The notes below the pieces were generated by a model, which had not been told where the DNA came from, made no database searches, and worked only from the letters and a program-made list of their open reading frames with translations. DNA of 64,000 nt, from the NCBI GenBank assembly GCA_015058655.1, contig SVBX01000011.1:1-64000 (forward strand). The letters are read 5' to 3'. Shown in pieces: positions 102 through 35,893 of this stretch (position 1 is its first letter; every line of letters starts with the position of its first letter). The position numbers and the translations under genes are program-made. The DNA comes from Pseudoselenomonas ruminantium (lineage in GTDB: Bacteria > Bacillota > Negativicutes > Selenomonadales > Selenomonadaceae).

Positions 102-1349
102 ATGAGCAGTGCAGGGATGGACGGGCTGAAAGCCCGTTGGCAGCATTTGAGCAGGGCCAGGTATCTTATGTTGCTGGCCTTGCTGGCAGCATTGTCTTTA
201 TATATGTATTTTGGTCATAACGGCAATTCGGAGACTAAAGGGGTAAAGGAACACAAGCCTGTGGTGGAAGTCATGACCCTGCAGCGGGGGGATATGAGCC
301 GTCATATCCTCCTTTCCGGTCAGACCGTGGCAGAGGCAGATATTTCCCTGGCTCCCAAGTACACAGGCCGGGTAGCGGAGGTGTTGGTGGATTTAGGGGA
401 CTATGTGGAAGCGGGGCAGCCCCTGTTGGTGCAGGATGTGTCGGATCTGGACATCTCCATCATGGAGAAGCAGGCGGCAGCCAGGGCCGCCGGAGCAGAT
501 GCCAGGGAGGCGGCCGCTGCCTATGATGCCAACTACATCAAGGCCCGCAACGATTATGAACTGGAAAAGAGCAGGTACGAGAGAAATGTCTATCTTTTCT
601 CCATTGGCGCCATTTCACAGGACAAGCTGGATTCTGTGAAGCAGGAGTACCTGGCCAGCAAGGCCTCCTTCGAGGTCCTGGAAAATCAGGTGGAAGGGGG
701 TGGGGCTGCTTCCATCCAGTCCAAGGCCTACACGGCAGAAAAGACAGAGCGGGGGGCAGAGGCTCTCATCCAGCAGCGGGCGGATATGGTGCTGCGGGCG
801 CCCCGCTCGGGGATTATCGGCTATCGCAAGGCGGAGCCGGGAGAGATTATCTCGGCGGGTACCAAAGTGCTGAGCCTGGTGGACAGCAGCCGCATGAAAG
901 TTGATTGCACACTCTCCGAGTCAGATGCAGCTATCCTGCAGCCGGGCATGGAAGTCACGGTGACCGTGGATGCCATGGGAGCAGAATATCCCGGGCGCAT
1001 CATTTATGTCAGCCCTGCCATGGATGAAGCGGATAAGAGCTATCAGGTGCGCATAGAGCTCTTGGGGGAGGATTTGCAGCTGAAAGCAGGGCTTTTCGCC
1101 CACACTTCCTTGGATATCCTCCAGCGAAAGGACACCTTTTTCGTGCCCAAGGAGGCGGTGCTTTCCCGCAATGGGCGCCAGCTGGTCTTTGTGCTGGATG
1201 AGGAGAACAGGGCGCATATGCGGGAAGTGCGGTTGGGACTGATAAATGATGAATCTGATGAAATTCTCTCTGGGCTTGAAGCAGGCGACAGGGTAGTTAT
1301 ATCCGGCCTTGACCGGCTGCAGCAGGGAACGGCGGTGGAAGTCATATGA
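102..1349 (+). CDS. RND efflux periplasmic adaptor (membrane fusion protein)
   Basis: Links an inner-membrane RND pump to an outer-membrane channel across the periplasm. The 415-residue product has a short cytoplasmic N-terminus and one hydrophobic anchor (about residues 21-38), with no lipobox cysteine. A first lipoyl/barrel half (GRVAEVLVDLGDYVEAGQPL, about 87-108) comes next, then an Ala/Glu-rich alpha-helical hairpin (about 120-230) and the second lipoyl half (LRAPRSGIIGYRKAEPGEII). Beta-barrel and membrane-proximal domains end the protein. The ATG is preceded by AAGGAGA. The gene overlaps the pump gene by 4 bases, so the two are co-translated. No TolC-like gene is seen here. Substrate is unknown. 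Confidence 0.93.
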   Translation: MSSAGMDGLKARWQHLSRARYLMLLALLAALSLYMYFGHNGNSETKGVKEHKPVVEVMTLQRGDMSRHILLSGQTVAEADISLAPKYTGRVAEVLVDLGDYVEAGQPLLVQDVSDLDISIMEKQAAARAAGADAREAAAAYDANYIKARNDYELEKSRYERNVYLFSIGAISQDKLDSVKQEYLASKASFEVLENQVEGGGAASIQSKAYTAEKTERGAEALIQQRADMVLRAPRSGIIGYRKAEPGEIISAGTKVLSLVDSSRMKVDCTLSESDAAILQPGMEVTVTVDAMGAEYPGRIIYVSPAMDEADKSYQVRIELLGEDLQLKAGLFAHTSLDILQRKDTFFVPKEAVLSRNGRQLVFVLDEENRAHMREVRLGLINDESDEILSGLEAGDRVVISGLDRLQQGTAVEVI

Positions 1350-4300
1350 ATATCACCCGTTTTTCCATAGAGCGGCCCGTGGGCATTTCCATGATCGTGG
1401 CCTTCTTCGTGGTGCTGGGCCTATACAGCTACTACCGCATCGGGGTAGAACTGCTGCCGGATATCAACACCCCTTATGTCACCGTGAGGGTGAAGTATCC
1501 GGGAGCCAGCGCCGAGTCCGTGGAGCAGGAGGTGGTGCGTCCCATTGAGGATGCCCTGTCCTCTGTGTCCAATGTGAAGAAGATCACTTCCACTGCCAGC
1601 TATGAGCAGGCTCGCATTGGTTTGGAACTGGATTTCAAGGCAGATGCAGACCTGGCGGCCATAGAGGCCACCAAGAAGGTAGATGCAATCAAGAACAGGC
1701 TCCCAGATGAGGCGGACTCTCCTGTAGTCATCAAGCGTGACATCAACGCCAAGCCCATCGTGGAGCTGGCAGTGCTGTCCCCTTATGGCCTGGCAGATAC
1801 CTACTCCCAGACAGAGAATGTCTTTCAGGAGGTGCTGCAGCAGGCCGGAGGCGTGTCGGAAGTAGAACTGCATGGTGGCCGGGACAAGGAAGTGGCGGTG
1901 GAGGTAGACAGGGACAAGATGGCTGCCTACGGCCTGAGCCTTGACCGCATCGCTTCTGCCTTGAAAAAGGAAAATCAGCTGCTGCCTTCAGGTTCTGTCT
2001 ACACAGACAGCACCCAGGCAGATGTGCGCCTTATTGCCCAGTACAGGGAAGTGGCGGAAATCGAAAAGGTGCAGGTGACGAACGCTGCCGGGGCCAAAGT
2101 GCCCCTGACTTCTGTGGCAACGGTCAGGGAGCAGTCGGCCAGGAGCTCCCGCTATGGCAGGCTCAACGGTCAGGAAGCCATCAATGTGCTGGTCTACAAG
2201 AATAGCGATGCCAATGTGGTGGAAACCACCAAAAACATCCAGGAGAAGCTGGAACGGCTGCAAAGGGATTATCCTGAATATGAATTCGTCACCGTTTCCA
2301 GCGATGCGACCTATGTGGAAACCTCCCTGCACAATACGGTCATGACTTTGGTAGAGGGGCTCATCACCACGGGGCTGGTGCTCTTTTTCTTCCTGCGGGG
2401 CTGGCGCTCCACGGCGGCGGTGATGATTGCTCTGCCCACCTCCCTGGTGGCCACTTTCTTTGTCATGTATGTCGCCGGTTTCACCTTCAATATGATGTCC
2501 ATCATGGGCATGACCCTCTGCATAGGCATCCTGGTGGATGATGCCATCGTAGTGCTGGAAAACATCATCAGGCATCTGGGGCTGGGGGAAGGCCCTCGGG
2601 AGGCGGCGGAAAAGGGCCGCATGGAAATAGGCATGGCGGCAGTGGCCATCACCCTCTGCGATGCGGCAGTCTTTATGCCCATAGCTTTTATGGAGGGCAT
2701 GACGGGCCAGTATTTCCGCCAGTTTGGCCTTACCATTGTCTTTGCCGGAGCCTTCTCCCTCTTTGTGTCTTTCACCCTTACGCCCATGCTGGCAGCAAGG
2801 TTTTACCGCCAGGGCTACAAGCCAGATGACAGGCCGCTCTGGCGCTTCATGGACAGATTGGAGAAGAGGGCGCAGGCTCGCTATGAGGGCATGCTCCTGT
2901 GGAGCCTGGGCAACAGGAAGAAGCTTCTGCTGAGCATATTGGCTGCCTTCCTGGGCGTGATGGCTTTGGTGCCCTTGGGGGCGGTGGGCTCTGAGTTCAT
3001 GCCCCGCACCGATGAATCTTCCTTTGTGGTGAGCATACAGGCTCCCGTGGGTTCCTCGGCAGAGGAAACTGACAAAGTGGCCCGCAGGGTGGAGGAGAAA
3101 CTGGCGGAAATGCCGGAAGTGAAATACTACATGACCCATGTGGGCGGCTCTGCGGCCTATGAGGGCAGGATCATGGTGCAGCTCTTCGACCAGCGTGATC
3201 GCAGCCGATCCGTGTGGCAGGTGGCAGATGAGGTGCGCGCCCTTGCTGCCGGCATTCACGAAGCTGAGGTGCGGGTGGCAGAGTCCCAGACCAATGTGGC
3301 GGGAAATTCCGGCAGAGGTCCCAGGGGGGGCGCCGGTGCCCTGCAACTGGAGCTGCGCAGCAACCACAGCGATGCTCTGGAGGAGGCCACGGAAAAGACC
3401 ATGGCCATCCTGTCCGGCATAGATGGCCTGACCGATGTGAACAGCACTTACCAGGAAGGCATGCCGGAGCTGCAGCTCCGGGTGGACAGAGAAAAGCTCA
3501 AGACCTACGGCACTTCTTTGGGAGAGGTGGAGACAGCCTTTGAGTCCGCCATTTCCGGACTTTCTGCCGGGGAACTGAAAAATGACCGGCTCAATGGCGG
3601 CAGGGATACGGATATCAAGGTGCGCTTCCGGGGGGCAGATGGCTACAAGGCTTCTGATGTGGCCAGAATCCCCATTATTTCCTCAGGCAGGCTCATTTAT
3701 CTGGGAGATGTGGCTGAGATAAGAAGCGGACGCGGCCCTGTCACCATCCGGCGTGTGGACAAGCAGCGTTCCAGCGCCATAGGCGCCAACCTCAGCGGCA
3801 GGCCCATAGGCGAGGCGGTGAAAGAAGTGAAGCAAGCCCTGGCGAAAGCCGATCTGGGTGAGGGAATCACCTACAAGTTCAGGGGACAGGCTGACAGGAT
3901 GGACGAGGCCTTCTGGGAACTGCTGTCAGCCTTGCTGCTGGCCCTGGTGCTTATCTACATGTTGCTGGCTGTGCTCTACGAATCAACCATCACTCCCTTC
4001 ATCCGCATGTTCTCCCTGCCTCTGGGGCTGATAGGCTCCATCCTGATGCTGTTCCTCACCCGCAATACCCTGAATCTTTACTCCCTTATCGGTATTCTGG
4101 TGATGGACGGAATCGTGGCCAAAAACGGCACTTTGCTTATCGACTACACCCTGACCCTCATGGAGCGAGGGAAAAGCGCTTTGGAAGCTGTCGTGGAGGC
4201 AGGCCGCGTGCGCCTGCGTCCCATCATGATGACCACCATCACCATGATGGCCGGCATGCTGCCCACAGCCCTTTCACTCACCGCCGGCAGCGAGGCCCGC

Positions 4301-21376: not shown

Positions 21377-21404
21377 AGGAAGTCATAAAAAGCTTCCAGA
21401 ATGA

Positions 21405-21444
21405 CATTGCGAGGGCGGCCCATGGTGGGCCGCCCCTTGCAATG
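21405..21444 (+). repeat. Long hairpin after adk
   Basis: CATTGC...GCAATG encloses GGCGGCCCA/TGGGCCGCC with a 3-base loop. It is very stable but followed by ATATAAATG rather than a T-run, so either a weak terminator or an mRNA-processing or stability hairpin. It occupies the position where map would be expected. Confidence 0.7.
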
Positions 21445-21551
21445 ATATAAATGAATTTAATAATGTTCTGTTGTTGGGCATGGCATTAGAAATGCAGAAA
21501 GCTCCTTTTGAATGACTTTGGCCCAACCAAGTTAATGTAAAGGGGAAGAAC

Positions 21552-21770
21552 ATGTCAAAACAAGATGTTATTGAAGTTGAAGGCAAGGTACTGGAAGCGC
21601 TGCCCAATGCAATGTTCCAGGTCGAGCTTGAAAATGGTCATGTTGTACTGGCTCATGTATCCGGCAAGATCCGCATGAACTTCATCCGTATCCTGCCAGG
21701 GGACAAGGTCACGATTGAGCTCACGCCTTATGACTTGACCCGTGGCCGTATAACCTACCGATTCAAATAA
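21552..21770 (+). CDS. infA: Translation initiation factor IF-1
   Basis: 72 residues, the invariant length, single OB fold: [40 protein letters not shown] and [23 protein letters not shown]. It blocks the A site during initiation. GGGGAAG precedes the start. It is separated from rpmJ by a promoter and a 150-bp structured element. Confidence 0.98.
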
Positions 21771-21816
21771 GGTCAGCTGCTTTCGAAAATTTTTTTTGTT
21801 TTCCTGCAAAAAAAAC

Positions 21817-21845
21817 TAGGCAGGGACGCAAAAAGATGGTATACT
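21817..21845 (+). promoter_or_regulatory. Internal promoter before rpmJ-rplQ
   Basis: TAGGCA (21817-21822), 17-base spacer, TATACT (21840-21845). It would transcribe the structured element at 21873-22022 and then rpmJ-rpsM-rpsK-rpsD-rpoA-rplQ. The -10 is good and the -35 is moderate. A T8/A8 hairpin-like stretch just upstream (21790-21816) may end infA transcripts. Confidence 0.6.
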
Positions 21846-21872
21846 CGAGAAATGACAGACTGACGATAAGGA

Positions 21873-22022
21873 ACTGTGAAGAAATAAATTTCAGGTTATC
21901 ACGCAGGAGGAATTTTCCTGGATGAGGCAGAGGAGTGCGGCATAGCGGCGCTATGCCAAGCGACGATAACGAAGTACAGGGAAATTTAGACGAGTGAGAG
22001 TTGAAATTTATTGATGAACAGT
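21873..22022 (+). repeat. 150-bp palindromic structured element in the alpha-operon leader
   Basis: The outer ends are imperfect inverted repeats: ACTGT with ACAGT, and AATAAATTTCA (21883-21893) with TGAAATTTATT (22002-22012). Inside is the hairpin GGCATAGC/GCTATGCC (21939-21957). There are also two interleaved pairings, GTTATC (21895-21900) with GATAAC (21965-21970), and AATTTTCCTG (21911-21920) with CAGGGAAATT (21977-21986). Their order 1-2-1'-2' would make a pseudoknot. The central hairpin resembles that of the 162-bp MITE at 35699-35860. It may be a mobile-element relic or a leader RNA. Confidence 0.6.
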
Positions 22023-22049
22023 GACTACAGGAAAAGGAGGCATACTTTA

Positions 22050-22163
22050 ATGAAGGTTAAGCCGTCAGTGAAGCGTATCTGTGAGAAATGCAAGATCATC
22101 AAGCGCAAGGGCCGTGTCATGGTCATCTGCGAGAATCCTAAGCATAAACAGAGACAAGGTTGA
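22050..22163 (+). CDS. rpmJ: 50S ribosomal protein L36
   Basis: 37 residues: [20 protein letters not shown] then [17 protein letters not shown]. Three cysteines and one histidine form the zinc ribbon, so this is the zinc-containing form. AAAAGGAGG lies 9 bases before the ATG. Confidence 0.97.
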
Positions 22164-22193
22164 TTATTTGATTTATAAGGAGGTGCTTTATTA

Positions 22194-22565
22194 ATGGCAC
22201 GTATTGCCGGTGTAGATTTGCCCCGTGACAAGAGAATTGAAATTGCTTTGACTTACATCTATGGTATTGGCCTCACGACTTCCCAGAAGTTGCTCGCCAT
22301 GACTGGCGTTAACGCTGATACCCGTACTCGTGACCTCACGGAGGACGAAGTGGTTAAGCTTCGTGATGCTATCGATAAGAACGTGGTGGTTGAAGGTGAC
22401 CTTCGCCGCGAGCGTCAGATGGACATCAAGAGACTCGTTGATATCGGCTGCTACCGTGGCCGCCGCCACCGTCTCGGCCTTCCTGTCCGTGGACAGAACA
22501 CCAAAAACAATGCCCGCACCCGTAAAGGCCCGAAAAAGGCCGTTGCAGGCAAGAAGAAAGACTAA
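22194..22565 (+). CDS. rpsM: 30S ribosomal protein S13
   Basis: 123 residues. S13 forms head bridges to the 50S and touches P-site tRNA with its basic tail ([18 protein letters not shown]). [20 protein letters not shown] at the start and [20 protein letters not shown] near the end are diagnostic. Confidence 0.98.
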
Positions 22566-35618: not shown

Positions 35619-35893
35619 TGCTAAGGCGTTCTGGACACAGGCATAGCAACGCTGCACTTGAGATTTTTCCTGCGGAAAAATTTCACACATTCCGCTTAGG
35701 GCGTGTTGATTAATTCACTAAGCCCATCTTCACATATCTTGACTGTCCCTGCTGCGTTGACAAATCCTCGACATAGCACTGCTATGCCTCCGGTTTGTCG
35801 CCTTGCAATGGACAGCCAATCTACGCAAATCTGGGTCAAGTTCATTTAATCAACACGCCCTATGCTATGCCTGTGTCCCTCACTTACTGCAGC
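35619..35893 (+). repeat. Palindromic repeat family R2, copy A (split by a MITE)
   Basis: The outer arms GGACACAGGCATAGCA (35633-35648) and TGCTATGCCTGTGTCC (35863-35878) are perfect complements once the insert at 35699-35862 is removed. The inner hairpin is GAGATTTTTCC-TGC-GGAAAAATTTC. Copy B at 37774 is the same element without the insert. Arm changes between copies are compensated (see findings). Confidence 0.88.
35699..35860 (+). mobile_element. 162-bp MITE with 15-bp terminal inverted repeats and TA target duplication
   Basis: Ends are GGGCGTGTTGATTAA (35699-35713) and its exact complement (35846-35860). It is flanked by TA at 35697-35698 and at 35861-35862. The uninterrupted R2 copy B reads TTCCGCTTATGCTG across the same point, showing a single TA at the empty site. 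A TA duplication is characteristic of IS630/Tc1-mariner-type transposition. There is no coding capacity. The centre carries a GACATAGC/GCTATGCC hairpin. Confidence 0.88.

Follow-up and report, generated by a model that had tools for sequence, protein, structure and literature searches.

A MITE insertion in the alpha-operon leader of Pseudoselenomonas ruminantium and the probably RNA-selected core that it shares with MITEs of other ends

Results

Features of the alpha-operon leader

The window analysed here comprises 64,000 nucleotides (positions 1 to 64,000 of contig SVBX01000011.1, assembly GCA_015058655.1). A first-pass annotation had described the stretch 21873-22022 as a pseudoknot-capable element in the leader of rpmJ-rpsM-rpsK-rpsD-rpoA, comparable to the S4-bound leader of E. 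coli, and had named a repeat insertion as the alternative. The following features were assigned:

21552-21770: infA, upstream neighbour of the element
21817..21845, +: promoter-like site of the alpha operon, TAGGCA, 17 nt, TATACT with TG (consensus match only)
21867..21869, +: left target-site copy, TAA (from the empty site ...ACAATAAGGAAAAGGAGG in loci L114 and L115)
21870..22025, +, sense to the operon: whole mobile element, F1-type MITE, 156 bp (copy comparison, model R1)
21870..21876, +: left terminal inverted repeat GGAACTG (copy comparison)
21895-21900 / 21965-21970, +: GTTATC / GATAAC pair (sequence)
21906..21991, +: conserved core common to MITEs with other ends (82.5 bits, copy in the training set)
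21911-21920 / 21977-21986, +: AATTTTCCTG / CAGGGAAATT pair with one G-U (sequence)
21923..21935, +: 5′ side of the internal-loop helix (TGAGGCAGAGGAG) with tandem G.A pairs (core alignment)
21939..21957, +: apical hairpin GGCATAGC-GGC-GCTATGCC, arms 21939-21946 / 21950-21957 (sequence, fold alignment)
21958..21972, +: 3′ side of the internal-loop helix (AAGCGACGATAACGA), including GATAAC of the proposed pseudoknot (core alignment)
22019..22025, +: right terminal inverted repeat, worn, CAGTGAC for CAGTTCC (copy comparison)
22026..22028, +: right target-site copy, worn, TAC(A) for TAA (empty-site comparison)
22030..22040, +: Shine-Dalgarno site of rpmJ, the same as in the empty site, 4 nt from the element
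22050..22163, +: rpmJ, the first gene 3′ of the element
35699..35860, -: second MITE of the window, F2 type, ends GGGCGTGTTGATTAA, TA on both sides, same kind of core (R1 match)

All segments named in the first-pass annotation are present within 21873-22022: both complementary pairs, the central hairpin and the outer inverted repeat (21873-21893 / 22002-22022, 81% complementary). The two pairs interleave on paper, as a pseudoknot would require, yet structure prediction gives one nested rod. Its energy is -53.3 kcal/mol against -27.9 (sd 3.1) for shuffled sequences (z -8.1), and none of 200 shuffles folded as well. The ends of the element, 21870 and 22025, lie slightly outside this stretch and were set by other copies and by empty sites. 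No ORF of at least 30 aa is present within the 156 bp, so that the element has no coding capacity for a transposase. The window copy scored 143.9 bits (E 1.8e-33) with model R1, to whose training set it belongs.

A comparable CTAGGCAG...TATACT is found in the same spacer of several relatives. The element is likely to be transcribed ahead of rpmJ from this promoter-like site, as judged from the sequence. The Shine-Dalgarno site has a predicted openness of 0.81 in the presence of the element and of 0.73 in the sister leader, mostly unpaired either way; since the site stays open in the prediction, translation need not suffer. A comparison of positions 21400-22300 with Rfam gave 14 matches up to E 10, none above its own cut-off.

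Empty sites and conservation at the locus

Two species of the same genus (G001 and G002) have an empty site at this position. Their leader reads GACTGACAATAAGGAAAAGGAGGCATACTTTAATG, while the window has, at the same place, GACTGACGATAA, the element and TACAGGAAAAGGAGGCATACTTTAATG. A third congener, G003, carries the same insertion with 97% identity, G005 has a different leader without the element, and a BLAST search of G004 with the element region gave no match. The gap between infA and rpmJ measures 279 nt with the element and 120 nt without it (locus L113 vs. L115). Empty sites in two species and the shared insertion in the window and G003 indicate that the element entered in the ancestor of the latter two.

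Conservation of the leader at this locus had been put forward as a check. Model R1 matched 2 of 39 alpha-operon loci, namely the window itself and G003, so this check went against a conserved leader. The 39 loci comprise 31 of the family (window included) and 8 named others: an S13 search found the protein in 54 of 61 genomes and loci were obtained for 30, to which locus L022 and 8 of 80 named loci were added.

Between the two carriers 5 of 156 sites of the element differ, compared to 36 of 364 fourfold-degenerate sites (p 0.008). Spacers as a yardstick vary between the same two genomes, with 2 of 175 positions changed between adk and infA and 6 of 39 in the stretch after infA. The lower rate of change is possibly a hint of constraint at the locus, which would speak against pure baggage.

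Dispersed copies, their ends and target duplications

A BLAST search of the own genome with a 286-bp region found 19 places, including that of the window. Model R1, which was made from F1 copies only, gave 84 matches in this genome and 56 places after merging of the strands, 29 of them at 92 bits or more and 27 lower. Of the 29 F1-like places 27 were read; of the 27 lower ones 24 were read, 23 as F2 and one as a relic. The check for copies at other loci therefore favours a repeat. The aligned copies share a common block GGAACTG...CAGTTCC, mostly flanked by TTA/TAA, and differ in sequence outside it.

Matching TTA or TAA flanks, i.e. a 3-bp duplication, were present in all 16 copies read of a young 155-bp subfamily. 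Across several genomes the flanks matched in 31 of 47 full-length copies (24 with TTA or TAA), while 2000 re-pairings of the flanks gave 12.1 matches on average and never more than 20. A scan of 189 genomes of the family for the end pattern GGAACTGNNNAKAAATAAAT was positive in 25, from 6 of 30 genera; the reversed control was found in none of the genomes listed. Within the chosen range of 150-170 nt, 36 distinct copies measure 155-159 nt, and longer copies of 182-215 nt, which contain insertions, were seen as well. Additional insertions have enlarged or interrupted L205 (G030), L207 (G156) and L196 (G031).

The orientation to neighbouring genes, as called by our own codon-usage script, is mixed: in 59 F1 rows both neighbours are sense in 26 cases and antisense in 19, with 10 divergent, 3 convergent and 1 lacking a downstream gene. 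These rows include L246 on both strands, the ortholog pairs L009/L022, L218/L219 and L229/L232, and derivatives of 40, 77 and 83 nt; after dropping repeats and derivatives, the 52 remaining rows give 23, 16, 9, 3 and 1 in the same order. Since copies occur in both orientations, a role of the RNA in host leaders is not general. In G031 (L193-L200) several copies or relics are located in sense directly before a Shine-Dalgarno sequence and start codon. They had suggested a 5′-leader role for all copies, which the mixed orientation rules out. None of the 59 rows places an F1 copy inside a called gene; three of nine rows with short relics do lie inside, and these may be chance matches. A protein-coding core was considered as well (ATG after GGAGG, with a short frame in some copies) and rejected, as the young subfamily and the CATATG-tip group reach a stop within a few codons by eye.

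Short relics of 22-42 bp consist of ends only (L244 1472-1499, L243 from 1504, and L194, L195 and L197 near 1001), and one of 22 bp has TAA on both sides. They are either products of an internal hairpin deletion or tiny elements that still moved. Two contigs break inside F1 copies (L241 1-70 at the start of C36 and L252 at the end of C49). Plasmids and phages searched with the F1 element gave no match; one related core matched one Sporomusa plasmid, and another gave no match in phages.

An autonomous partner with the ends of F1 was not found among the DDE_Tnp_1 and DDE_Tnp_4 loci. In eight DDE_Tnp_1 loci GGAACTG occurs only in L234, four times and never preceded by TWA, a 13-of-16 inverted-repeat scan of the DDE_Tnp_1 loci gave no matching F1 ends, and the DDE_Tnp_4 search had 0 matches. 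The contig ends, examined for a parent transposase, gave no result. For the F2 MITEs, locus L235 (1430-2091) holds a 662-bp DDE_Tnp_1 element with ends GGGCGTGTT and a TA target, which judging by its ends is likely to be their partner.

The sequence in the alpha-operon leader thus is short, lacks transposase coding, has dispersed copies, terminal inverted repeats and a target duplication, and is matched by an empty site in relatives, as expected for a MITE. That the hairpin is a mobile-element insertion is near certain. Neither conservation at the locus nor conserved pseudoknot stems, as expected for an S4 leader, were found.

A rod conserved on one strand

RNAalifold predicted one long rod for 38 copies. 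This alignment (A2) consists of full-length copies with recognisable ends, L029 and L030 having been added by hand; copies bearing insertions (L020, L196, L205, L207) and truncated or short copies were left out. Over its 52 pairs, 95.7% of the cells are paired and 26 pairs have changed on both sides, while sliding one arm by 1-3 columns lowers pairing to 31-44%. Of the 38 copies, one forms the GTTATC/GATAAC stem of the proposed pseudoknot completely; three reach 5 of its 6 pairs and 27 reach 2.

The 12 representatives (<92% identity) contain 38 G-T and 5 A-C cells on the union of pairs; the opposite-strand prediction gives pairs with 22 and 5. Their consensus energy is -63.3 kcal/mol, compared to -37.9 on the opposite strand. 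All 38 copies give 98 to 25 on the union and a weaker 31 to 24 on opposite-strand pairs. Single copies show the same strand difference: -53.3 vs. -36.3 for the window element and, in the other MITE of the window, of which the inner 136 bases were folded, -60.2 vs. -37.2. Such a bias would not be expected for a strand-blind palindrome. Covariation beyond the controls and strand specificity, as expected of a structured RNA, are thus both present, with some of the strand counts weaker. The simplest reading of the one-strand fold is RNA, and single-stranded DNA of the same strand could also give the signal. From these comparisons, a selected RNA module is likely.

The same core under other ends

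The first-pass annotation had seen a likeness between the central hairpin and the MITE at 35699. This likeness is real and extends along the element. Although made from F1 copies only, model R1 finds the F2 MITE at 35699-35860 with 62.2 bits, listed on the minus strand only. The bit score alone was discarded as proof of kinship, as F1 copies reach 35-66 bits on their wrong strand, too. Kinship of F1 and F2 follows from shared letters (BLAST matches of 24 nt), the one-strand hit and the alignment of the cores. The two types share the core and differ in that F2 has ends GGGCGTGTT and TA, whereas F1 has GGAACTG and a 3-bp, mostly TWA, duplication. The F2 MITE is itself nested in another inverted repeat at 35634-35880 (GGACACAGGCATAGCA ... 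TGCTATGCCTGTGTCC).

In the class, R1 matches were obtained in 123 of 380 genomes and 36 of 102 genera. Sixteen genomes chosen from the 123 have 2 to 71 matches each, where both strands of one copy may count. The one or two best hits from each of the sixteen gave 30 loci (A3), which differ in their ends: GGAACTG, GGGATGACGAAACCC, CTAGTGTAGTGAC, CTAGTACCTTG, CTAGTACTCTGTAA, CTAGTGGTCTG and others. Nevertheless, 19 of the 30 best matches contain GGCGGAGGA, which was found in 0.1% of simple shuffles. A repeat of 2-9 bp outside the computed ends of these elements was not found in 27 of the 30, and CTAG may itself be a duplication.

A set of 42 cores from many genomes (A4: 41 of 45 extracted cores, four near-duplicates having been dropped, and the F2 core of the window) has 92.9% of cells paired with 22 of 26 pairs changed on both sides, compared to 31-45% pairing in slid controls. 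Here G-T exceeds A-C by 103 to 18 on the union and by 27 to 15 on opposite-strand pairs. Two 2-by-2 loops read GA/GA in 32 and 30 of the 42 cores, and a third loop reads GC/AA in 33 or GA/GA in 7, so that the loops are stacked G.A mismatches between single standard pairs. The hairpin tip of the family is of the GCRTAGC kind. A second core type has an ordinary helix in place of the G.A part (window F2, L290, L293, L305 and, by eye, L307).

The core model R2 includes the F1 and F2 cores of the window, and its two hits there are by construction. In the phylum it matched 36 of 398 genomes, 29 of them outside the class, where hits near E 1e-4 may be chance. Nine loci were read, three of them within the class; the letters from 6 of the 29 outside-class genomes contain the core with further ends.

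Members in rRNA genes and comparison with Rfam

In the relative G079 members are located inside the 23S rRNA gene (L285 1501-1659 and L300 1501-1659), in sense in both loci read. In the Rfam 23S alignment of L285, 164 bases stand against 2 of the model; they follow ...AGAAATCAA. Between identical flanks, 8 of 159 bases distinguish the two copies, and the sense strand folds with -79.5 compared to -49.1 for the antisense strand. From the sense position inside a 23S rRNA gene it follows that the selected strand must be transcribed in G079. Another member is found in the 16S-23S spacer (L285 1069-1224). In G288 a member (L284 1501-1661) is placed in sense directly upstream of rnpB and overlaps 20 bases of the 5′ end of RNase P RNA (1199-1520, minus strand).

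Rfam searches of the window and 19 member loci gave six matches above cut-off, all to known rRNA, RNase P or riboswitches and none corresponding to the element family. Two of them overlap a member, the 23S match in L285 and the RNase P match in L284 (20 bases).

Discussion

The element in the alpha-operon leader is very probably an old MITE copy, tolerated baggage or of modest effect and not an S4 switch, whose one-strand RNA fold was selected in the source copies. It was inserted in the common ancestor of two species, at a TAA that lay after the promoter and before the ribosome-binding site of rpmJ-rpsM-rpsK-rpsD-rpoA, presumably by a transposase acting in trans on the GGAACTG ends. The 3-bp duplication made in the process is now partly worn. 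Transcription of the 5′ leader would at present yield the element as a rod of 156 nt, with the Shine-Dalgarno site predicted to be left open. Folding of the RNA of one strand would have been selected in active source copies, possibly for recognition by a protein or nuclease, or since the fold may make insertions tolerable to transcripts, even to 23S rRNA. The copy in the alpha operon itself would be tolerated baggage with at most a modest effect on mRNA stability.

An autoregulatory leader, in which S4 binds a pseudoknot before rpmJ and shuts off rpmJ-rpsM-rpsK-rpsD-rpoA, was the first interpretation of this stretch. The position in the leader and segments that can be written as interleaved pairs would suit it. 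Nevertheless it is extremely unlikely and was given up: dozens of copies lie elsewhere in the genome, 37 of the 39 alpha-operon loci lack the element, species of the same genus have an empty site, and the pseudoknot stem shows no conservation and takes up bases of the nested rod, which is conserved. The alternative of a repeat insertion related to the MITE at 35699 was the right one, in view of the dispersed copies and the related core. The leader of E. coli (RF00140) likewise lies ahead of ribosomal protein genes, but does not match the element, which is unconserved at its locus. The Alpha_RBS match of Rfam is weak (19 bits vs. a cut-off of 38) and lies not at the element but at the rpmJ-rpsM junction (22117-22226). 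This junction would be a better place to seek an S4 site; in E. coli the S4 site of the alpha operon lies before rpsM.

It is unlikely that an element of MITE origin has become a working cis element in the two carriers, e.g. as an RNase III substrate or 5′ stabiliser. It lies in sense after a promoter-like site and 4 nt from the Shine-Dalgarno site, its rod still forms (143.9 bits in the window and 154.3 in the other carrier), and it has changed less than fourfold sites since the carriers split; cleavage of MITE stem-loops by RNase III has been proposed for Neisseria transcripts (PMC2229807). However, a comparison of two genomes with five changes is thin, the right end and the duplication are worn, the window copy scores below 24 of the 29 F1-like places, and members of the genus without the element keep the operon. 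That the fold is needed as single-stranded DNA or as a cruciform in transposition or replication, and not as RNA, appears quite unlikely. MITEs move as DNA, and no bias in orientation to host genes was seen; in DNA hairpins, too, G-T is better tolerated than A-C, and tandem G.A pairs form. On the other hand, terminal inverted repeats together with a duplication of 3 bp are signs of a mechanism that works on double-stranded ends and needs no internal fold, and the copies in the 23S rRNA gene are sense in both loci. Because members are found inside 23S rRNA genes, the readings as RNA are slightly raised and the reading as DNA is lowered.

The Correia or NEMIS repeats of Neisseria resemble F1 in having a 155-bp class, terminal inverted repeats, target duplications and stem-loop transcripts, as described in PMC2229807. 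They belong to a different host group, and the likeness is one of general description. We know of no report of one Correia core under many different ends. BOX, RUP and SPRITE of pneumococcus are short mobile repeats able to form parts of operon leaders, and one BOX lies between two T boxes before trp (PMC3049150). BOX is modular and of variable length, whereas F1 copies mostly measure 155-159 nt and have a fold common to families of ends. Intervening sequences are also located inside 23S rRNA genes, like the member of G079; the selfish one of Coxiella has 428 nt with an ORF, according to PMC4990558. In the available portion of a 2024 review on MITEs (PMC10969869) our structure and taxon terms do not occur. 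A literature search on these repeats found no relevant paper, from which we do not claim that they are absent from print.

For the genus, a false lead has been removed: the alpha-operon leader is an ordinary short leader into which a repeat jumped. The common picture of a MITE is that of two ends around an indifferent interior. In these elements it is the interior that is conserved more strongly than the ends, as a fold of one strand that recurs between several kinds of ends across many families of one class and some beyond it. It is quite possible, if somewhat short of probable, that a phylum-wide MITE superfamily has one structured RNA module, with a G.A rod and a GCRTAGC-like tip, as its conserved unit and swaps transposase partners via ends of 7-20 bp, so that selection on the RNA and not on the ends defines the family. 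If the RNA is selected, the module would be a candidate RNA family, Rfam having no match to it in the members examined. If this reading is true, i.e. if selection acts on the RNA, the RNA would serve the element, e.g. by recruiting a protein or by making insertions harmless to host transcripts, including rRNA. On the same condition, these elements would be DNA transposons dependent on a structured transcript, a case that can be put to the test.
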